The notes under the pieces: generated by a model
Database searches by the model: none
Told to the model about the DNA's origin: nothing
The model's input: the letters and a program-made list of their open reading frames with translations, nothing else
Source of the DNA: Halichoerus grypus
Taxonomy: Eukaryota; Chordata; Mammalia; Carnivora; Phocidae
Length of the DNA: 64,000 nt
Direction of reading: 5' to 3'
Assembly: GCF_964656455.1 (NCBI RefSeq)
Contig: NC_135715.1
Coordinates: 82,748,414-82,812,413, forward strand
Made by a program: the position numbers and the translations under genes
Part shown: one piece after another, positions 1,563 through 48,400 of the stretch
How positions within the stretch are numbered: position 1 is the first letter of the stretch
Layout: every line of letters starts with the position of its first letter

Positions 1563-2204
1563 AATGTTTGGAAGTGTCTTTGTTGGAGCAGGGATAGATT
1601 TACCGAGAGTCCATATTCTCTGCCTCTTTTGCCTATGAACTAAAGCAGTGTGTGTGTGTGGGGGGGGAATCTCTCACTAGGATGGGCAGCTCAGTCTGGC
1701 TCTATGAAAAAGGATTTCCTCTAAAGTCTGAAAATCTGGTTACAAATCTGACCGATGACCCAGGCCTAAGTGGCCAGAATTTAAGTCATAGAGGGACAAC
1801 CAAGGTTGTCTGCACATCCTTACAAACAGCCTTCCTAATTCTTGAGGAGAGTAGTGCAGTGGAAACATATATATTTGGGGTGCAGTGGTAAAAAAAAATC
1901 TAGACTCTAGATTCTGTTCTGCTAAGAATAAACTGCATGACTGATTTTTTCCTTTTGCTTCAGGCCCAAAAATGACTCAGCATACCACTGGAGGAAAGCA
2001 CTGAAAGAAAAATGAGCAACAAGAAGTGGAAATAAAGGTTTTAGAAGGATTAAAAGGAAAATTATGGAAACTGATGGTAGTTATTGCATCTCAAAGACAA
2101 AAAAAAGAACGCTTCGAGCAGCCAGGACAAACAATGATATAGCAGCAAAGAACTTCAGTCTTTTTTTTTTTCTCTTCAAGAATTTTTTTTCCTTTTTTTC
2201 TTTT
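1563..2204. other. Intergenic stretch, no gene seen
   Basis: It holds a short (GT)n run followed by a G homopolymer at about 1650-1667 and a T-rich stretch at 2160-2205 that probably belongs to the 3' tail of the following - strand L1. I see no conserved coding signal. Confidence 0.5.
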
Positions 2205-2641
2205 TTCTTTTATTATGTCAGTTAGCCAACATATAGTACATCATTAGTTTTTGATGTAGTGTTCAACGATTCATTAGTTGCATATAACACCCTGTGCTCA
2301 TCACAACACATGCCCTCCTTAATACCCATCACCCAGTTACCCCATTCCTCCGCCCCTCTCCCTTCTGTAACCCTGAGTTTGTTTCCCAGAGTCCATAGTC
2401 ACTCATGGTTCTTCTCCCTCTCTGATTTCTTCCCATTCAAATTTCCCTCCCTTCCCCTACGTTCCTCCCTGCTATTCCTTATATTCCACATATGAGTGAA
2501 ACCATATGATAATTGTCTTTCTCTGCTTGACTTATTTGACTTAGCATAATCTCCTCCAGTTCCATCCCTGTCGATGCAAATGGTAGGTGTTCATCTTTTC
2601 TTATGGCTGAGTAATATTCCGTTGTATATATGAGCCACATC

Positions 2642-2848
2642 ATTTTTTTTTATTTTTTTAAAGATTTTATTTATTTATTTGACAGAGACAGAGACAGCGA
2701 GAGCAGGAACACAAGCAGGGGGAGTGGGAGAGGGAGAAGCAGGATTCCCGCTGAACAGGGAGCCTGATGTGGGACTCGATCCCAGGACTCTGGGATCATG
2801 ACCTGAGCCGAAGGCAGCCGCTTAACGACTGAGCCACCCAGGAGCCCC
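2642..2848 (-). mobile_element. Carnivore tRNA-derived SINE (CAN-SINE)
   Basis: Reverse-oriented SINE: an A/T tail (TTTAAAGATTTTATTTATTT) on the left, a CT/GA-rich body, and a box-containing head ending GAGCCACCCAGGAGCCCC. The insertion is flanked by an 11-bp target-site duplication TGAGCCACATC at 2631-2641 and 2849-2859, and it splits the 3' part of the host L1. It is non-coding, moved by L1 machinery. Confidence 0.93.
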
Positions 2849-3480
2849 TGAGCCACATCTTTTTTATCCATTCATCTGTTGAAGGGCATCTTGGCTCCTT
2901 CCACAGTTTGGCTATTGTGGACATTGCTGCTGTGAACAAAGAAGGTGCAGGTGCCCCTTCTTTTCACTACCTCTGTATTTTGGGGGGTAAATACCTAGCA
3001 GTGCAATTGCTGGGTTGCATGGTAGCTCTATTTTTAATATCTTGAGGAACCTCCATACTGTTTTCCAGAGTGGCTATACCAGTTTGCATTCCCAACCAAC
3101 AGTGTAAGAAGGTTCCCCTTTCTCCATTCCTCACCAACATTTGTTGTTTCCTGTCTTGTTAATTTTTGCCATTTTAACTGGTGTAAGGTGGTATCTCATT
3201 GTGGTTTTGATTTGTATTTCCCTGATGGCTAGTGATGTTGAACATTTTTTCATGTGTCTGTTAGCCATTTGTATATCTTCTTTGGAGAAGTGTCTGTTCA
3301 TGTCTTCTGCCCATTTCTTGAGTGGATTATTTGTTTTTTGGGTGTTGAGTTTGAGAAGTTCTCTATAGATCTTGGATACCAGCCTTTTTTCTGAAATGTC
3401 ATTTGCAAATATCTTCTCTCATTCCCTGGGTTGCCTCTTAGTTTCATTGACGGTTTCCTTTGCTGTGCAGAAGGTTTTAT

Positions 3481-4502
3481 CTTGAAGAAGTCCCAAAAGT
3501 TCATTTTTGCTTTTGTTTCCCTTGCCTTTGGAGACGTGTCTAGCAAGAAGTTGCTGCAGCCAAGGTCAAAGAAGTTGCTGCCTATGTTCTCCTCCAGGAT
3601 TTTGATGGAGTCCTGTCTCACATTTAGGTCTTTCATCCATTTTGAGTTTATTTTTGTGTAAGGTGTAAGAAAGTGGTCCAGTTCTATTCTCCTGCTGTGG
3701 CTGTCCAATTTCCCCAACACCATTTGTTGAAGGGACCATTTTCCATTGGATATTCTTTCCTGCTTTGTCGAAGATTAGTCGATCATAAATAGAGTTGAGG
3801 GTCCATTTCTGGGTTCTCTATTCTGTTCCATTGTCTATGTGTCTGTTTTTATGCCAGGACCATACTGTTTTGATGATCACAGCTTTGTAAAACAGCTTGA
3901 AGTCAGGCATTGTGATGCCTCCAGCTTTGGTTTTCTTTTTCAACATTCCTTTGGCTATTCAGGGTCTTTTCTGGTTCCATACAAATTTTAGGATTGTTTG
4001 TTCCAGCTCTGTGAAAAATGTTGATGGTATTTTGTTAGGGATTGCATTGAATGTGTAGATTCTTTGGGTAGCATAGATATTTTAAGAATATTTGTTCTTG
4101 CAATCCATGACCATGGAATGTTTTTCCATTTCTTTGTATCTTCCTCAACTTCTTTCATAGGTGTTCTATAGTTTTCAGAGTACAGATCCTTTACCTCTTT
4201 GGTTAGGTTTATTCCTAGGTATCTTATGGTTTTTGGTGCAATTGTAAATGCGATAGATTCCTTGATTTCTCTTTCTTCTGCCTCATTGTTAGTGTATAGA
4301 AATGCAACTGACTTCTGTGCATTGATTTTATATCCTGTCACTTTGCTGAATTCCTGAATGAGTTCTAGCAATTTTGGGGTTGATTCTTTTGGGTTTTCAA
4401 CATAGAGTGTCATGGCATCTTGGAAAAGTGAAAATTTGACTTCTTCTTTGCTGATCTGGATGCCTTTTATTTCTTTTTGTTGTCTGATTGCTGAGGCTAG
4501 GA
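3481..4502 (-). repeat. Left arm of ~1.02 kb near-identical inverted repeat
   Basis: I compared this tract line by line, in reverse complement, with 5880-6920. I found about three single-base differences (two of them transition-type) and one 18-bp insertion in the right arm. Identity ends abruptly at both edges: beyond 3481 and beyond 4502 the two L1s drop to ordinary family-level similarity. The partner arm is 1377 bp away. Confidence 0.95.
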
Positions 4503-5432
4503 CTTCTAGCACTATGTTGAACAATAATAGTGAAAGTGGGCATCCCTGTCGTGTTTCTGACCTTAAGGCAAAAGCTCTCAGTTTTTCCCCATTGAGACTG
4601 ATATTCGCTGTGGGCTTTTCATAGATGGCTTTTATGATATTGAGGTATGTTCCCTTTATCCCTATACTTCGAAGAGCTGTATTTTGTCAAATGCTTTTTC
4701 TGCATCAATTGAGAGGATCATATGGTTCTTGTCTTTTCTTTTACTAATGTGCTCTATCATGTTGATTGATTTCTGAATATTGAACCACCCTTGCATCCCA
4801 GGAATAAATCCCACCTAGTCATGGTGAATAATCCTTTTAATGTCCTGTTGCATCCTATTAGCTAGGACCTTGTTGAGTATTTTGGCATCCATGTTCCTCA
4901 GGGATATTGGTCTGTAATTTTCCTTTTTGATGGGGTCTTTTTTGGGTTTTGCGGTCAGGGTAATGCTGGCCTCATAGAAAGAGTTTGGAAGATTTCCATC
5001 CCTTTCTATTTTCTGAAACAGCTTCAGAAGAATAGGTATTATATCTTCTTTAAATATTTGGTAGAATTCCCCTGGGAAGCCATCTAGCCCTGGACTCTTG
5101 TTTTTTGGGAGGTGTTTGATTACTGCTTCAATTTCCTTACTGGTTATTGATCTGTTCGGATTGTTTATTTCTTCCTGTTTCAGTCTTGGTAGTTTATAAG
5201 TTTCCAGGAATGCATCCATTTCTTCCAGATTGCTTAATTTGTTGTCATATTGTTGCTGGTAGTAATTTCTAATAATTGTTTCTATTTCCTTGGTATTAGT
5301 CATGATCTCTCCCCTTACATTCATGATCTTATTAATTTGGGTCCTTTCTCTTTTCTTTTGGGTAAGTCTGGCCAGAGGTTTATCAATCTTATTAATTCTT
5401 TCAAAGAACCAGCTTCTAGTTTCATTGATCTA

Positions 5433-5562
5433 GACTGCTTTTTATTTAGAAATATTTCATGAGTATTTTCCCAGGTTAAAAAATATGTTGTCCAATATAT
5501 TTTCAACATCTATATATTTTCCCACTAAGGAAATTGAATCAAGACTCAGAAGGTTCCCAACA
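5433..5562 (+). mobile_element. Gap between inverted L1s with a slice of ancient L1M
   Basis: Mostly AT-rich sequence. The words 'aaggaaattgaatcaagact' (about 5527-5546) match the ORF2 region of the ancient + strand L1 that resumes at 8206, so the right-hand L1 was inserted into that older element. The copy AAGGTTCCCAACA (5550-5562) is the left target-site duplication of that insertion. Confidence 0.6.
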
Positions 5563-5879
5563 TTTTACTCCTGGACTGCAAGGGTAGTTCAACATCCACA
5601 AATCAATCAGTGTGATACACATTAGTAAAAGAAAGGACAAGAACCCCATGAGCTTCTCAATAGATGCAGGAAAAGCATTTGACACACTAGATCAACTGTT
5701 CTTGATAAAAACTCTCCACCATGTGGGATAGAGGGAACAAACCTCAATATCATAAAGCCACATACAAAAGACCCACAGCAAATATCATCCTCAATGGGGA
5801 AAAACTGAGAGCTTTTCTCCTAAGGTCAGGAACGTGACAGGGGTGTCCACTCTCACCACTGTTGTTCAACACAGTACTA

Positions 5880-6920
5880 GTCCTAGCCTCAGCAATCAGA
5901 CAACAAAAAGAAATAAAAGGCATCCAGATCAGCAAAGAAGAAGTCAAATTTTCACTTTTCCAAGATGCCATGACACTCTATGTTGAAAACCCAAAAGAAT
6001 CAACCCCAAAATTGCTAGAACTCATTCAGGAATTCAGCAAAGTGACAGGATATAAAATCAATGCACAGAAGTCAGTTGCATTTCTATACACTAACAATGA
6101 GGCAGAAGAAAGAGAAATCAAGGAATCTATCGCATTTACAATTGCACCAAAAACCATAAGATACCTAGGAATAAACCTAACCAAAGAGGTAAAGGATCTG
6201 TACTCTGAAAACTATAGAACACCTATGAAAGAAGTTGAGGAAGATACAAAGAAATGGAAAAACATTCCATGGTCATGGATTGCAAGAACAAATATTCTTA
6301 AAATATCTATGCTACCCAAAGAATCTACACATTCAATGCAATCCCTAACAAAATACCATCAACATTTTTCACAGAGCTGGAACAAACAATCCTAAAATTT
6401 GTATGGAACCAGAAAAGACCCTGAATAGCCAAAGGAATGTTGAAAAAGAAAACCAAAGCTGGAGGCATCACAATGCCTGACTTCAAGCTGTTTTACAAAG
6501 CTGTGATCATCAAAACAGTATGGTCCTGGCATAAAAACAGACACATAGACAATGGAACAGAATAGAGAACCCAGAAATGGACCCTCAACTCTATCTATGA
6601 TCGACTAATCTTCAACAAAGCAGGAAAGAATATCCAATGGAAAAGAATATCCCATGGAAAATGGTCCCTTCAACAAATGGTGTTGGGGAAATTGGACAGC
6701 CACAGCAGGAGAATAGAACTGGACCACTTTCTTACACCCTACACAAAAATAAACTCAAAATGGATGAAAGACCTAAATGTGAGACAGGACTCCATCAAAA
6801 TCCTGGAGGAGAACATAGGCAGCAACTTCTTTGACCTTGGCTGCAGCAACTTCTTGCTAGACACGTCTCCAAAGGCAAGGGAAACAAAAGCAAAAATGAA
6901 CTTTTGGGACTTCTTCAAGA
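5880..6920 (+). repeat. Right arm of ~1.02 kb near-identical inverted repeat
   Basis: Partner of 3481-4502. The shared tract includes private disabling changes, not just consensus L1 sequence: the altered RT box and the frameshifted segment read as '[17 protein letters not shown]' in both arms. That makes independent descent from a common active L1 unlikely. It starts just after a 3-bp difference at CTAG(AAG)TCC and ends at the 'aagataaaa' step before 'gcttctgcac'. Confidence 0.95.
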
Positions 6921-7054
6921 TAAAAAGCTTCTGCACACCAAAGGAAACTTTTGACAAAACTAAAAGACAACCTACAGAGTGGGAGAAGATATTTGCAATG
7001 TCTTATCAGATACAGGGCTAGTATCTAAAATCTATAAAGAACTTATCAAACTCA

Positions 7055-7249
7055 GGGCGCTGGGGTGGCTCAGTTGGTTAAGTGTCTGCCTTCAGCTAAG
7101 GTCATGATCCCAGGACCCTGGGATCGAGCCCTGCATTGTGCTCCCTGCTCGGCAGGGAGCCTACTTCACCCTTTCCTCCCAGCTCCTGTTTTCTCTTGCT
7201 ATCTCTGTCTCTCTCTCTCTCAAATAAATAAATAAAATCTTAAAAAAAA
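7055..7249 (+). mobile_element. Carnivore SINE
   Basis: Head 'gggcgctggggtggctcag', anticodon-like tRNA-derived part, (TC)n stretch and AAATAAATAAATAAAATCTT-A tail. Target-site duplications of 19 bp (AAAGAACTTAT/CCAAACTCA) lie at 7036-7054 and 7250-7268. It splits the right-arm L1 late in ORF2. Confidence 0.93.
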
Positions 7250-9451
7250 AAAGAACTTACCAAACTCAACACCCAGAGAACAACAAATCCACTCAAGAAA
7301 TGGGCAGAAGACATGAACAGACATTTCTCCAAAGAAGACATACAAATTGCCAACAGACAAATGAAAAAATGTTCAACATACTCGGCATCAAGGAAATACA
7401 AATAAAACCATAATAAGCTATTACCTGACACACTCAGAATGGCTAAAATTAGCAACTCAGGAAACATGTTGGAGAGGATGTTGGAGAAGGGAGAACTCTC
7501 TTACACTGTTGGTGGGAATGCAAGCTGGTACAGCCACTCTGGAAAACAGTATGGAGGTTCCTGAAAAAGTTAAAAATAGAGCTACCCTTTGAGCTAGCAA
7601 TTGCTCTACTAGGTAATTATGGAAAAGATACAATCATAGTGATTCAAAGAGGCACATGCACCCCAATGTTTATAGCAGCAGTGTCTACAATAGCCAAACT
7701 GTGGAAAGAGCCCAGGTGTCCATTGACTCATGAATGGATCAAGAAGAAGTGGTATATATATACAATGGAATATTTTCAGCCATCAAAAAGAAGGCAATCA
7801 TGCCCCTTGCAACAACGTTGATGATACTAGAAGGTATTATGCTAAGTGAGATAAGTCAGAGAAAGACACATAGCATAACATTTCACTCATATGTGGAATT
7901 TAAAAAACAAAACAGACAAATATAGGGGAAAGGAAGGAAAAATAAGATAAGACAAAATCAGAGAGGGAGCCAAACCATAAGAGACTCTTAACTATAGGGA
8001 ACAAACTGAGGGTTGCTGGAGGGGAGGTGGGTGCAGGGATGTGGTAACTGGGTGATGGGCATTGAGGAGGGCACTTGATATAATGAACACTGGGTGTTAT
8101 ATGCAACTGATGAATCACTAAATTCTATCTTTGAAACTAATAATACACTAATTAATTAAATTGGGGATTTTAAATAAAAACAAAAACAAAAAAAGGCTCC
8201 CAACAAACAAAAGCCCAAGGTGGTTTCACTGGTGAGTTCTACCAAACACTTAAAGAAGAATCAATGTCAATTCTTTTCAAACTCTTCCATAAAATTAAAA
8301 AGGAGGGAACACTCAAATAAGCACAATACACAAATGTTATACACCACATTAATAGAATGAAAAATAAAAATCATAAGGTCACCTCAATAGATGCAGAAAA
8401 AGCATTTGACAGAATTCAACATCCTTTCAGGATCAAAATGCTGAATAAATGGATGTAGAGGACTATACCACAGTATAATAAAAGTATGACAAGCACACAG
8501 CTAATACCATACTCAACAGTGAAAGATTGAAAACTTTCCTGCCAAGATCAGAAACAAGACAGGGTGCTCACTCTCTCCACTCCTAATTCAACATAGAACT
8601 GGAAATTTGAGGCAGAGCAATTAGGTGAGAAAAAGAAATAAAAGGAATCCAAACTGGAAATGAAGAAGTAAAATTGTCTTTGTTCCCAGATGATGTGATA
8701 TACATAGAATATGCTAAGACTCCACCAAAACACTGTTGGAACTAATAAACAAATTTAGTAAAGTTGAAGGATACAAAATCAACACACAAAAAAATCAGTT
8801 GCATTTCTCTACACTAACAACAATCTGAAAAATAAATAAATAAAACAATTACATTATCAAAAATAATGCAATACTTAGGAATAAATTTAACCAAGGAGGT
8901 AAAAGATCTGTACATTGAAAACTACTAGACATTGATGAAAAAAATTGAGGATGGAAATAAATGGGAAAATATCCCATATTTGTGGAGGAAGAATTAATAC
9001 TGTTCAAATGTCCATACTATTCAAAGTCATCTATAGATTTAATGCAATCTCTATCAAAACTCTAATGGCATTTTTCAACAGAAACAGAAATAATAATCCT
9101 AAAACTCCAAAGGTCCACAAAAGACCCCAAGTAGCCAAAATCCTGAGAAAGAAGAACACAGCTGAAAGCATCACACCTCCTGATTTCAAGTTTTATTCCA
9201 AAGCTATAATAATCAAAATAACATGGTACTGGCATAAAAACAGACACATAGATGAATGGAATAGAACTAAGAGGCCAGAAATAAACCCATGCATATACAG
9301 TCAGCTAGTATTTGACAAGGGGGCTAAGAATACTCAGTGGGGGAATGAATAATCTCTTCAATAAATGTTGTTAGGAAAACTGTATATTCACATGCAGAAA
9401 AAAGAAACTGGAGCCCTATCTCAGACGACTCATAAAAATTAACTCAAAATG

Positions 9452-9718
9452 AGAAGAATGTAGCAGGAGGGGAAGAATGAAGGGGGGGAAATCGGAGGGG
9501 GAGAAGAACCATGAGAGACAATGGACTCTGAAAAACAAACTGAGGGTTCTAGAGGGGAGGGGGTTGGGAGGATGGGTTAGCCTGGTGATGGGTATTGAGG
9601 AGGGCACGTTCTGCATGGAGCACTGGGTGTTATGCACAAACAATGAATCATGGAACACTATATCTAAAACTAATGATGTAATGTATGGGGATTAACATAA
9701 CAATAAAAAAAATTAAAA
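9452..9718 (+). mobile_element. L1 3'-end insertion, copy 1
   Basis: About 267 bp of carnivore L1 3' UTR, from 'agaagaatgtagcagg' to an A-rich tail. It is flanked by an 18-bp target-site duplication (AAAAATTAACTCAAAATG) at 9434-9451 and 9719-9736, so it is a true retrotransposition event into the ancient L1M. A second copy with the same 5' break lies at 12649-12919. Confidence 0.9.
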
Positions 9719-9762
9719 AAAAATTAACTCAAAATGGATTAAAGATTTAAATATAAGACCTG

Positions 9763-10930: not shown

Positions 10931-11247
10931 GGGATATTATTCAGCCATAAAAAGAAGGAAATTCTGCCTTTTGTGTCAACATGGATGGATCTTGAGGGCT
11001 AAGTGAAGTAGGTCAGACAAAGACAAATACTGTATCATTTCGCCTGTATGCAGAATCTCAAAAAGCTGAATTCACAGAAGTAGAGAGTGGAAGGGTGGTT
11101 GGCAGGGGATGGGAGGGTGGAAGAAATAGGGAGTTGTTGGTCAAAGGATACAACCTTCCAGCTATAAAATGAATAACTTTGGGGATCTAATGTACAGTAT
11201 AGTGACAATAACTGACAATATGATATTATATACTTGCAAGTTGCTCA

Positions 11248-11514
11248 GAAAGTGGTCCAGTTTCATTCTTCTGCATGTGGCTGTCCAATTTTCCCAACAC
11301 CATTTGTTGAAAAGATTGTCTTTTTTCCATTGGACATTCTTTTCTGCTTTGTTGAAGAAGCATTTTCATTGGCCATAAAGTTGAGGGTCCATTGCTTGGT
11401 TCTCTATTCTGTTCCATTCACCTATGTGTCTATTTTTGTGCCAGTACCATACTGTCTTGATGATTACAGCTTTGTAATAGAGCTTAAAGTCTGGCATTGT
11501 GATGTCACCAGCTT
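11248..11514 (-). mobile_element. Inverted 5' segment of a twin-primed L1
   Basis: 267 bp of L1 ORF2 in - orientation that, when reversed, ends '...gaccactttct'. The + strand L1 beginning at 11515 reads 'cttacaccatacac', the very next bases of the element. The segment is therefore the upstream part of the same L1 flipped in place, the classic product of twin priming during target-primed reverse transcription. Confidence 0.9.
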
Positions 11515-12648
11515 TCTTACACCATACACAAAGTTAAACTCAAAATGGATGAAAGGAATCCATCAAAATCCTAGAGGAGAACATAGGCAGCAAACTCTTT
11601 GATCTCAACACAGCAACTTCTTACTAGACATGTCTCCAGATGTAAGGGAAACAAAAGCAAAAATGAACTTTTGGGACTTCTTCAAGATAAAAAGCTTTTG
11701 CACAGCAAAGAAAACTTTTGACAAAACTAAAAGACAATTGACAGAATAGCAGAAGATATTTGCAAATGACTTACCAAATAAAGGGCCAGTGTCCAAAATC
11801 TATAAAGAACTTACCAAACTCAACACCCAAAAAACAACAAATCCAGTCAAGAAATGGGCAGAAGACATGAACAGACATTTCTCCAAAGAAGACATACAAA
11901 TGGCTAACAGACAGATGAAAAAATGCTCAACATCACTCGGCATCAAAGAAAATACAAATCAAAACCACAATGAGATACCAACTCACACCAGTCAGAATGG
12001 CTAAAATGATCAACTCAGGAAACAACAGATGTTGGTGAGCATGCAGAGAAAGGGAAACACTCTTATACTGTTGGGGGGGGGTGCAGCCACTCTGGAAAAC
12101 AGTATGGAGGTTCCTCAAAAAGTTGAAAATAGAGCTACCATATGATCCAGCAATTGCACTCCTGGGTATTTACCCCAAAGATACAAAAGTAGGGACCCGA
12201 AAGGGTACGTGCACCCCGATGTTTATAGCAGCAATGTCCACAATAGCCAAACTGTGGAAAGAGCCAAGATGTCCATCAACAGATGAATGGATAAAGAAGA
12301 TGTGGTATATATATACAATGGAATATTATGCAGCCATCAAAAGGAATGAGATCTTGCCATTTGCAACGACGTGGATGGAACTGGAGGGTATTATGCTGAG
12401 CGAAATAAGTCAAACAGAGAAAGACATGTATCATATGACCTCACTGATATGAGGAATTCTTAATCTCAGGAAACAAACTGAGGGTTGCTGGAGTGGGGGG
12501 TGGGGTGGGAGGGATGGGGTGACTGGGTGATGGACACTGGGGAGGGTATGTGTTCTGGTAAGCGCTGTGAATTGTGCAAGACTGTTGAATCTCAGATCTG
12601 TACCTCTGAAACAAATAATGCAATATATGTTAAGAAAGAAAAAAAAGA
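11515..12648 (+). mobile_element. L1 ORF2 3' part and 3' UTR (body of twin-primed L1)
   Basis: It continues from the inverted segment through ORF2 (pieces at 11789-12004 and 12081-12452) and a 3' UTR ending 'ctctgaaacaaataatgc' plus an A-rich tail near 12645. The sequence between about 12070 and 12090 lacks a short stretch normally found between 'actgttgg' and 'gcagccactctgg'. The same deletion appears at 13105-13120. Confidence 0.88.
11891..12139 (+). repeat. Direct repeat copy A (249 bp) within nested L1s
   Basis: About 97-98% identical to 12920-13167 and carries the same private internal deletion, whereas the sequence after each copy diverges at once into two different L1 subfamily types. 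Confidence 0.88.
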
Positions 12649-12919
12649 AGAAGAATGTAGCAGGAGGGGAAGAATGAAGGGGGGGAATCGGAGGGGGAGA
12701 AGAACCATGAGAGACGATGGACTCTGAAAAACAAACTGAGGGTTCTAGAGGGGAGGGGGTTGGGAGGATGGGTTAGCCTGGTGATGGGTATTGAGGAGGG
12801 CATGTTCTGCATGGAGCACTGGGTGTTATGCACAAACAATGAATCATGGAACACTATATCTAAAACTAATGATGTAATGTACGGGGATTAACATAACAAT
12901 AAAAAAATTAAAAAAAAAA
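12649..12919 (+). mobile_element. L1 3'-end insertion, copy 2
   Basis: About 98-99% identical to 9452-9718. It begins at the same base of the L1 3' UTR and differs mainly by three CpG-type transitions and a 1-bp G-run indel. It joins the A tail of the preceding L1 to the next L1 fragment. No clear target-site duplication beyond A/G-rich sequence. Confidence 0.88.
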
Positions 12920-13790
12920 GACATACAAATGGCTAACAGACACATGAAAAAATGCTCAAAATCACTCGGCATCAAAGAAAATACAAATCAAAACCACAAT
13001 GAGATACCAACTCACACCAGTCAGAATGGCTAAAATGATCAACTCAGGAAACAACAGATGTTGGTGAGCATGCAGAGAAAGGGAAACACTCTTATACTGT
13101 TGGGGGGCGTGCAGCCACTCTGGAAAACAGTATGGAGGTTCCTCAAAAAGTTAAAAATAGAGCTACCCTTTGAGCTAGCAATTGCACTACTAAGTATTTA
13201 TCCTAAGGATACAAACATAGTGATTCGAAGGGGCACATGCACCCCAATGTTTATAGCAACAATGTCCACAATAGCTAAACTATGGAAAGAGCACAGATGT
13301 CTGTCGACAGATGAATGGATAAAAAAGTGGCATATATATATACAATGGAATATTACTCAGCCATCAAAAAGAAGGAAATCTTGCATTTGCAACAAGGTGG
13401 ATGGAACTAGAGGATATTATGCTAAGCGAAATAAGTCAGTCAGAGAAAGACAAATACCATATGATTTCACTCATATGTGAAATTTAAGAAACAAAACAGA
13501 TGAACATAGGGGAAGGGAAGGAAAAATAAAATAAGATAAAGACAGAGAGGGAGGCAAACCATAAGAGATTCTTAACTCTAGGGAACAATCTGAGCATTGC
13601 TCTAGGGGAGGTAGGAGGGGGGATAGGGTAATTAGGTGGTGGGCATTAAGGAAAGCACTTGATGTAATGAGCACTGGGTGTTATATGCAACTGATGAATC
13701 ACTAAATTTTACCCCTGAAACTAATACTACACTATATGCTAACTAACTTGAATTTAAATAAAATTTTGAAAGGAATAAAAAAGAAATTTG
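12920..13790 (+). mobile_element. L1 fragment with second 3' UTR type; starts with direct repeat copy B
   Basis: It opens at 'gacatacaaatggc' immediately after an A tail. The first 248 bp (to 13167) duplicate 11891-12139. The rest is late ORF2 and a 3' UTR of another subfamily, ending 'aacttgaatttaaataaaat'. After it, the ancient L1M resumes ('aaatttgctaagagag'), matching 'caagttgctcagaaag' left of 11248, so the whole 11248-13790 block occupies one insertion site in the old element. Confidence 0.82.
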
Positions 13791-14892: not shown

Positions 14893-14999
14893 GTGCTCAC
14901 TTCTGTAGGACATATACTAAAATTGGAATGATACAGAGAAGATTAACTTTGCTCCTATGCAAGGATGACATGCAAATTCATGAAGTGTTCCATATTTTT
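14893..14999 (+). pseudogene. U6 snRNA pseudogene
   Basis: A 107-nt match to the full length of U6 spliceosomal RNA: it starts GTGCTCACTTCTGTAGGACA, contains 'catatactaaaattggaa' and 'gatacagagaagatta', and ends 'gttccatattttt'. It differs at many sites, including the ACAGAGA-proximal and 3' stem regions ('aactttgctcctatgc' in place of the normal 'gcatggcccctgcgc'). Upstream there is no snRNA-type PSE/TATA pair, only A/T-rich L1 sequence, so it is a dead retrocopy rather than an expressed gene. Confidence 0.93.
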
Positions 15000-45436: not shown

Positions 45437-48400
45437 AATTCCTCGTATCAGTGAGACCCTATGATACTTGTCTTTCTCTGATTGACTTATTTTGCATCCC
45501 ATAATACCCTCCAGTTCCATCCATGTTGTTGCAAGTGGCAAGATTTCATTTTTTTGATGGCTGCATAATATTCCATTGTATATATATACCACATCTTCTT
45601 ATCCATTCATTTAGTCAATGGAAATCTGGGCTCTTTCCATAGTTTGGCTATTGTGGACATGGCTGGTATAAATATTGGGGTGCACGTGCCCCTTCAGATC
45701 ACTACATTTGTATCTTTGGGGTAAATACAATTGCTGGGTCATAGGGTAGCTCTATTTTTAATTTTCTGAGGAACCTCCATACTGTTTTCCAGAGTGGCTG
45801 CACCAGCTTGCATTCCCACCAACAGTGTAGGAGGGTTCCCCTTTCTCCGCATCCCTGCCAACATCTGTCTTTTCCTGACTTGTTCATTTTAGCCATTCTG
45901 ACTGGTGTGAGGTGGTATCTCATTGAGGTTTTGATTTGGATTTCCCTGATGTCAAGCGATGTTGAGCACTTTTTCATGTGTCCGTTGGCCATTTGGATGT
46001 CTTCTTTGGAAAAATGTCTGTTCATGTCTTCTGCCCATTTCTTGATTGGATTATTTATTCTTTGGGTGTTGAGTTTGATAAGTTCTTTTTTTTTAAGATT
46101 TTATTTATTTATTTGACAGAGAGAGACACAGCGAGAGAGGGAACACAAGCAGGGGGAGTGGGAGAGGGAGAAGCAGGCTTCCCATGGAGCAGGGAGCCCA
46201 GTGTGGGGCTTGATCCCAGGACCCTGGGATCATGACCCGAGCTGAAGGCAGATACTTAATGACTGAGCCACCCAGGCACCCCTGATAAGTTCTTTATAGA
46301 TTTTGGATACTAGCCCTTTATCTGATATGTCATTTGCAATTATCTTCTCCCATTCTGTCATTTGTCTTTTGGTTTTGTTGACTGTTTCCTTAGCTGTGCA
46401 AAACCTTTTTATCTTGATGATGTCCCAATAGTTCATTTTTGCTCTTGCTTCCCTTGCCTTTGGTGATGTGTCTAGGAAGAAGTTGCTGTGGCTGAGGTCG
46501 AAGAGGTTGCTGCCTGTGTTCTCCTCAAGGATTTTGATGGATTCCTGTCTCACATTGAGGTCTTTCATCCATTTGAGTCTATTTTTGTGTGTGGTGTAAG
46601 GAAATGGTCCAGTTTCATTCTTCTGCATGAGGCTGTGCAATTTTCCCAACACCATTTGTTGAAGAGACTGTTTTTTCCATTGGACATTCTTTCCTGCTTT
46701 GTCAAAGATAGTTGACCATAGAGTTGAGGGTCCATTTCTGGGCTCTCTATTCTGTTCCATTGATCTATGTGTCTGTTTTTGTGCCAGTACCATATTGTCT
46801 TGATGATTACAACTTTGTAATAGAGCTTGAAGTCCAGAATTGTGATGCTACCAGCCTTGCTTTTCGTTTTCAACATTCCTTTGGCTCTTCGGGGTCTTTT
46901 CTGGTTCCCTACAAATTTTAGGATTATTTGTTCCATTTCTTTGAAAAACCCTGCTGTTATTTTAACAGGGATTGCATTAAATGTGTAGATTGCTCTAGAT
47001 AGCATAGACATCTGCACAATATTTGTTCTTCCAATCCATGAGCATGGAACGTCTTTCCATTTCTTTGTGTCTTCCTCAATTTCTTTCATGAGTATTCTAT
47101 AGTTTTCTGAGTACAGATTCTTTGCCTCTCTGGTTAGATTTATTCCTAGGTATTTTATGGTTTTGCGTGCAATTGTAAATGAGATCTACTCTTTAATTTC
47201 TCTTTCTTCTGTCTTGTTGGTGGTGTATAGAAATGCAACTGATTTCTGTGCATTGATTTTATATCCTGCCACTTTACTGAATTCTTGTGAGTTCTAGCAG
47301 TTTTGGGGTGGAGTCTTTTGGGTTTTCCACATAAAGTATCATATCATCTGCAAAAAGTGAGAGTTTCACTTCTTTGCCAATTGGGATGCCTTTTATTTCT
47401 TTTTGTTGTCTGATTGCTGAGGCTAGGACTTCTAGTACTATGTTGAATAGCAGTGGAGATAGTGGACATCCCTGCCGCATTCCTGACCTTAGGGGCAAAG
47501 CTCTCAGTTTTTCCCATCAAGTATGATATTCACTATGGTTTTTTCATAGATGGCTTTTATGATATTGAGGTATGTTCCCTCTATCCCTACACTGTGAAGA
47601 GTTTTAATCAAGAAAGAATGCTGTACTTGGTCAAATGTTTTTTGTGCATCTATTGAGGATCATATGGTTCTTGTTCTTTCTTTTATTAATGTATTGTATC
47701 ACATTGATTGATTTGCAGATGTTGAACCAACCTTGCAGCCCAGGGATAAATCCCACTTGGTCGTGGTGAATAATCCTTTTAATGTACTGTTGGATCCTAT
47801 TGGCTAGTATTTTGTTGAGAATTTTTGCATCCATGTTCATCAGGGATATTGGTCTGTAGTTCTCCTTTTTGATGGGGTCTTTGGTTTGGGGATCAAGGTA
47901 ATGCTGGCCTCAAAAAAGAGTTTGGAAGATTTCCTTCCATTTCCATTTTTTGGAACAGTTTCAGAAGAATAGGTATTAATTCTTCTTTAAATGTTTGGTA
48001 GAATTCCCCTGGGAAGCCATCTGGCCCTGGGCATCTGTTTGTCGGGAGATTTTTTATTACTGCTTCAATTTCCGTAGTGATTATGGGTCTGTTTAGGTTT
48101 TCTATTTCTTCCTGGTTCAGTTTTGGTAGTGTACACATCTCTAGGAATGCACCCATTTCTTCCAGATTGTCTAATTTATTGGCATATCGTTTCTCATAAT
48201 ATGTTCTTATAATAGTTTGTATTTTTTGGTGTTGGTTGTGATCTCTCCTCTTTCATTCATGATTTTATTTATTTGGGCCCTTTCCCTTTTCTTTTTGATA
48301 ACTCTGGCCAGTGGTTTATCAATCTTATTAATTCTTTCAAAGAACTAGCTCCTAGTTTCGTTGATCTGTTCTACTGTTCTTTTAGTTTCTATTTCATTGA

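Follow-up and report, generated by a model that had tools for sequence, protein, structure and literature searches.

Within a window of 64 kb (i.e. the whole stretch of DNA that was analysed), two L1 copies lying head to head share, in inverted orientation, a sharply bounded plateau of near-identity about 1 kb long. We consider it probable that this plateau was left by a recent, non-crossover ectopic gene conversion, in which one inverted L1 arm would have been copied onto the other. The process itself is known, and what we describe is a new and rather long example of it; comparable conversion was not found in the literature (as judged by titles and the start of abstracts), and we do not claim that such events are unpublished. 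The case is a clean natural instance, in apparently mammalian DNA, of conversion affecting inverted repeats that had diverged: one sequence suffices to read its two edges, its probable lack of crossover and the later changes.

The inverted plateau and the L1 copies that carry it

The outstanding inverted match in a self-comparison of the 64-kb window joined 3346-4808 to 7054-5564. The two elements involved, L1 A (2192-5431, minus strand) and L1 B (5563-8192, plus strand; the ends of both are approximate), are old, decayed copies of related subfamilies. Both are 5'-truncated and each is interrupted by a SINE-like repeat (about 2653-2851 in L1 A and 7055-7250 in L1 B), of a type that suggests a carnivore host, in line with the preliminary description. 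The plateau sits within a block of roughly 1.5 kb, from 5563 to the SINE-like repeat at 7055, over which L1 A and L1 B align without large interruption; the repeat in L1 B begins 130 bp past the plateau edge. The last part of the reverse-transcriptase domain and the sequence after it fall within the plateau, and the Pfam family RVT_1 (PF00078), which is not specific to L1, was recognised in L1 B at 5880-6380 (E = 3.8e-07, 30.4 bits against a cut-off of 29.6). In L1 elements, FADD is the catalytic box of this domain.

By base-by-base alignment, arm A of the plateau extends over 3475-4504 (minus strand, within L1 A, comprising the ORF2 reverse-transcriptase region and beyond; 1030 bp) and arm B over 5879-6925 (plus strand, within L1 B; 1047 bp). 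The inverted near-identity that a preliminary description had placed at 3481-4502 and 5880-6920 is thus real and slightly wider than proposed, and of the differences given there (about three substitutions and an 18-bp insertion) the substitutions stand, while the insertion measures 17 bp. The arms differ at 3 of the 1030 aligned sites (A 3788/B 6595, A 3769/B 6614 and A 3661/B 6739, all three of them transitions), and by the 17-bp insertion in arm B, a tandem duplication (6628-6644 and 6645-6661, plus strand) present as two units, with one mismatch between them, in arm B and as a single unit in arm A. What lies between these differences includes exact runs of 716 bp (5879-6594/3789-4504), 85 bp (6654-6738/3662-3746) and 186 bp (6740-6925/3475-3660). 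The spacer between the arms (4505-5878) is 1374 bp long, in agreement with the 1.4 kb first estimated; in it, a stretch of 131 bp (5432-5562) separates the 5' part of L1 A from the 5' end of L1 B.

Beyond the plateau the two elements diverge in the ordinary manner, as had been described: differences occupy 51 of 298 sites to the L1 5' side and 219 of 1035 to the 3' side, which amounts to 17-21% of aligned sites (79-83% identity), and the longest exact run that remains between them in the flanks is 38 bp. The edges proved as sharp as claimed when the proposed alignment check was run, since the windows adjoining them already hold 25/152 and 26/120 differences, i.e. flank-level divergence without an intermediate step. 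Up to 1032 consecutive sites hold no more than 3 differences, whereas the same differences, permuted 5000 times, never left more than 177 such sites, and a fixed-place hypergeometric calculation for the plateau gave about 10^-67. Hence, the pair displays what is taken as a mark of gene conversion, namely near-identity between paralogues with diverged flanks, beyond chance.

The only indels at the plateau edges are of 3 nt and 1 nt; the alignment is otherwise ungapped there, with no gap or duplication beyond those two. Both L1s run on in their own L1 coordinates past the plateau, so that the replacement is in register at both ends (another mark of gene conversion), and the event was therefore most likely guided by homology. 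Taking the outermost shared private substitutions as bounds, the minimum converted tract on L1 A is 3557-4456 (minus strand, 900 bp) and the maximum is 3475-4504 (1030 bp).

An assembly error, by which one arm would have been filled with the sequence or the reads of the other, appears to us very improbable. The window contains no N, and the three transitions and the 17-bp tandem duplication resemble real divergence, which one would not expect to see in a pasted copy; moreover, arms 17% apart should hardly be confusable by an assembler.

Private marks, gene trees and the source of the plateau sequence

The comparisons of shared marks and the trees were made among the L1 copies within the 64-kb window, not genome-wide. 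Arms A and B have 29 substitutions in common at sites that are present in 2 to 4 of the window copies C, D, E, F and G (the copies compared; copy H was left out), these copies agreeing on another base. Three 1-bp deletions (A 4062, 3834 and 3696) are likewise common to both arms and occur in none of the window copies in which the sites are covered; a TCTA duplication of 4 bp, also shared by the arms, is lacking in C, D, F and G. At the catalytic box the plateau has FQDAM, as against FADDM in copy C and FIDNM in copy D. The shared private damage noted earlier was in this way extended well past FQDAM, and the search for the private changes in other L1s, suggested at the same time, recovered them from none of the window copies covering the sites.

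FastTree phylogenies (built from 6 of the 8 aligned window copies, E and H being left out) placed A and B as sisters in the plateau with a support of 1.000, while in the flanks the division ran between A and C on one side and B, D, F and G on the other (support 0.881). The topology therefore switches between tract and flanks among these 6 copies, a further mark of gene conversion. The p-distances show the same: on the 5' side of the plateau they are 17.8% for A-B, 16.2% for A-C and 15.0% for B-D, and just beyond the 3' edge 20.8% for A-B, 18.3% for A-C and 12.3% for B-E. In gene conversion one copy should stay unchanged while the other is replaced, and the direction of transfer was sought in the sites shared with copy C only and with copy D only, which stand at 84:73 in the plateau, 65:48 in the A flanks and 89:87 in the B flanks; neither these counts nor the shared derived states singled out a donor arm.

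These data bear directly on the idea that the plateau needs no conversion at all and reflects a shared subfamily or a shared active master. Although both L1s do come from related subfamilies, their flanks are 17-21% apart and they are not sisters there, and no window copy covering the sites has the three common 1-bp deletions. As deletions of this kind in a coding region are unexpected of an active source, such a source does not explain the plateau. The reading is already largely contradicted, and we assign it a nearly negligible probability; the earlier dismissal of an active shared master is borne out by the shared coding-region deletions and by the sisterhood of A and B in the plateau but not in the flanks.

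The branch lengths hint that the plateau sequence may have come from a younger, third L1. In the plateau tree the stem leading to A and B measures 0.066, about half of the flank branches (0.121 for A and 0.110 for B). Of the other copies, G has an equally shortened plateau branch (0.063, against 0.110 in the flanks), C a less shortened one (0.095 against 0.114) and D one that is not shortened (0.123 against 0.121). On this reading a third L1 located elsewhere would have donated to one arm, which then converted the other. Private divergence agrees with this to some degree, being 57/899 in the A plateau and 151/1696 in the pooled A and B flanks (Fisher p = 0.02), but copies C and D together lean the same way (158/1808 vs 203/1950, p = 0.09) and part of the effect may be regional. 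Two conversions would moreover be needed, and the plateau's 1-bp deletions in the coding region imply that the donor was not an intact element, or that the deletions were gained later in the first recipient. We hold this two-step history to be very unlikely.

Edges, spacer orientation and age of the event

The two ends of the plateau coincide with its longest exact matches to the rest of the window. The block at the L1 5' side (4458-4504, minus strand) is identical over 47 bp to copy C (47384-47430), and that at the L1 3' side (3475-3523, minus strand) over 49 bp to copy E (11644-11692); in 8301-64000 these are the plateau's two longest exact matches, one per end, and the next one measures 32 bp. 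The match to other window copies serves here as a proxy for the lost recipient sequence, and it is suggestive only of an entry and exit of repair synthesis in long blocks of perfect homology, since matches of 47 and 49 bp are partly expected from the fact that an apparent end always extends to the next difference. One edge (4380-4530), folded as single-stranded DNA, had nothing special (z = -0.95).

The conversion that we favour may be pictured as follows. A break or a stalled fork would arise in one of the L1s, and the end would likely pair with the other L1, which lies inverted at a distance of 1.4 kb, or else with the sister-chromatid copy of that L1. Repair synthesis would then copy about 1 kb, the new strand likely leaving and returning through the long perfect-homology block at each edge. 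In yeast, inverted repeats that are separated by 1 kb and lie close to a break are reported to anneal mainly between molecules (PMC6103520), which makes an inter-sister event a plausible route.

A fold-back event during replication had been named as the alternative. In this account the strand being synthesised would move to the other arm, by folding back or by a jump, and would go back to its own template after some 1 kb had been copied, as a large-scale form of quasipalindrome correction. The outcome would be the same as that of conversion (arms homogenised in register), and the two cannot be told apart from the sequence by itself. Arms of inverted repeats are reported to be homogenised by template switches (PMC8604942). 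Such switching may need less homology than classic conversion, in which case it would suit flanks of 79-83% identity. The reported cases are, however, short and favoured by shorter spacers (PMC8604942), and another study models switches that lie no further than about 100 bp from a cluster of mutations (PMC7954356), while the present arms of 1030 and 1047 bp with their spacer of 1374 bp are neither short nor closely spaced. The location of the edges in conserved blocks of 47-49 bp also favours homology-guided entry and exit. On balance we find template switching unlikely. In the same vein, it is a more novel but unlikely proposition that switching between inverted arms lets close inverted retrotransposons rewrite a full kilobase at about 80-83% identity, bypassing the homology barrier of ordinary conversion and turning L1-rich stretches into local hotspots of self-copying. 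Should long tracts of low homology be common in inverted L1 pairs, they would provide a test of template switching against classic conversion.

When inverted arms recombine by crossover, the spacer between them is turned around. Because L1 B starts within the spacer and ends outside it, its target-site duplication can be used to test for such a flip. The 5' copy of this duplication lies at 5550-5562 (AAGGTTCCCAACA, plus strand) and the 3' copy at 8193-8205 (AAGGCTCCCAACA, plus strand), where an older host L1 resumes; 12 of the 13 bases match (score 10.5), and 1 of 500 shuffles was as good. The older host L1 is apparently collinear with copy C across both copies of the duplication, which on the upstream side is seen from a match of only 19 bp (E = 0.08) together with an alignment that is also short. 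With the duplication present on both sides the spacer has probably not been flipped; most likely it keeps its original orientation, pointing to a non-crossover outcome or to an even number of flips. A flip-type comparison (the 3' side of L1 B against the reversed 5' flank of L1 A) reached a score of 11.0, with 6 of 500 shuffles as good, and was rejected as a duplication, the match being A-rich and situated inside the L1 B tail (about 8167-8180), not beyond it. The other flip-type comparison gave nothing (352/500 shuffles as good), nor was a target-site duplication of L1 A found (251/500). A spacer flip by crossover was set aside, as the target-site duplication of L1 B argues against it. This duplication, the in-register replacement, the flanks that are not sisters and the private deletions together leave gene conversion, the preferred reading from the outset, as the best-supported one.

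Since the event, the arms have accumulated 3 substitutions over about 1025 sites, i.e. 0.15% per arm (95% Poisson interval 0.03-0.43%). Taking a neutral rate of about 2e-9 per site per year, the event would be about 0.7 (0.15-2.1) million years old, far younger than the insertions themselves. Comparison with the other copies suggests that C was changed to T in arm A at both A 3788 and A 3661; A 3769/B 6614 is located at a CpG. The 17-bp duplication is probably a gain in B, as the other copies covering the site carry one unit. Conversion tracts like this plateau distort divergence-based estimates of L1 age.

Other L1 copies in the window and a second tract

A second tract, in direct orientation, was found between 11885-12138 and 12914-13167, where 5 of 253 sites differ, as against 51 of 316 just beyond. 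Its longest exact run is 147 bp (0 of 5000 permutations had one as long), and the L1 pieces involved share an unusual run of G. It looks like the product of another, older conversion, with a local duplication as the alternative. Two tracts within 10 kb suggest that close L1 copies here exchanged sequence more than once.

The same region contains further L1 insertions. L1 B is apparently nested in an older L1, parts of which (5523-5562 and 8193-9458) now flank it; the end of the 131-bp spacer stretch (about 5523-5562) likely belongs to this older host. Two younger L1 3' ends (9446-9723 and 12642-12918) are 97.5% alike and are probably independent young insertions: the first has a target-site duplication of about AAAAATTAACTCAAAATG (read by eye), and the second lies between two older L1 pieces. 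The L1 at 11247-12642 has an inverted 5' part (11247-11518 on the minus strand and 11543-12458 on the plus strand, adjacent in L1 coordinates), as expected from twin priming. The sole Rfam match in the window is a complete U6 snRNA (14893-14999, 88.9 bits; gene or pseudogene). A phage collection and a set of viral contigs (the latter searched by one 23-base pattern) gave no match to the sequence, as expected of mammalian DNA.

Comparison with known systems

Ectopic conversion is reported to occur mainly above 80% identity, with human disease cases above 90%, a minimal processing segment that in rodents is about 200 bp, and a mean tract length between about 50 and several hundred bp; the estimate from one rodent data set exceeds 1 kb, though its interval is wide (PMC3924818). 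For human LTRs the maxima of conversion tracts are given as 14-450 bp (PMC4921805), and conversion between neighbouring Alu elements is described as acting within about 10 kb, where rates are higher (PMC8230782, PMC6598467). Set against these ranges, two features count against conversion in the present case: the flanks, at 79-83% identity, come close to the lower limit, and most reported tracts are shorter.

The closest likeness is to the ectopic conversion of Alu and LTR elements (PMC8230782, PMC6598467, PMC4921805), which likewise involves neighbouring copies of the same family within roughly 10 kb, an in-register tract and shared private variants; what sets our case apart is that the elements are L1s, that the pair is inverted, that the tract reaches 900-1030 bp and that the flanks are only 79-83% identical. 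The palindromes of the Y chromosome (Rozen 2003, as cited in PMC8604942) also have near-identical inverted arms across a spacer, whereas here two separate retrotransposon insertions carry one 1-kb patch, without an intermediate step at its edges. In template switching at short inverted repeats (PMC8604942, PMC7954356) one arm similarly serves as template for the other, but the arms considered here are 1 kb long, the spacer measures 1.4 kb and it is apparently not inverted.
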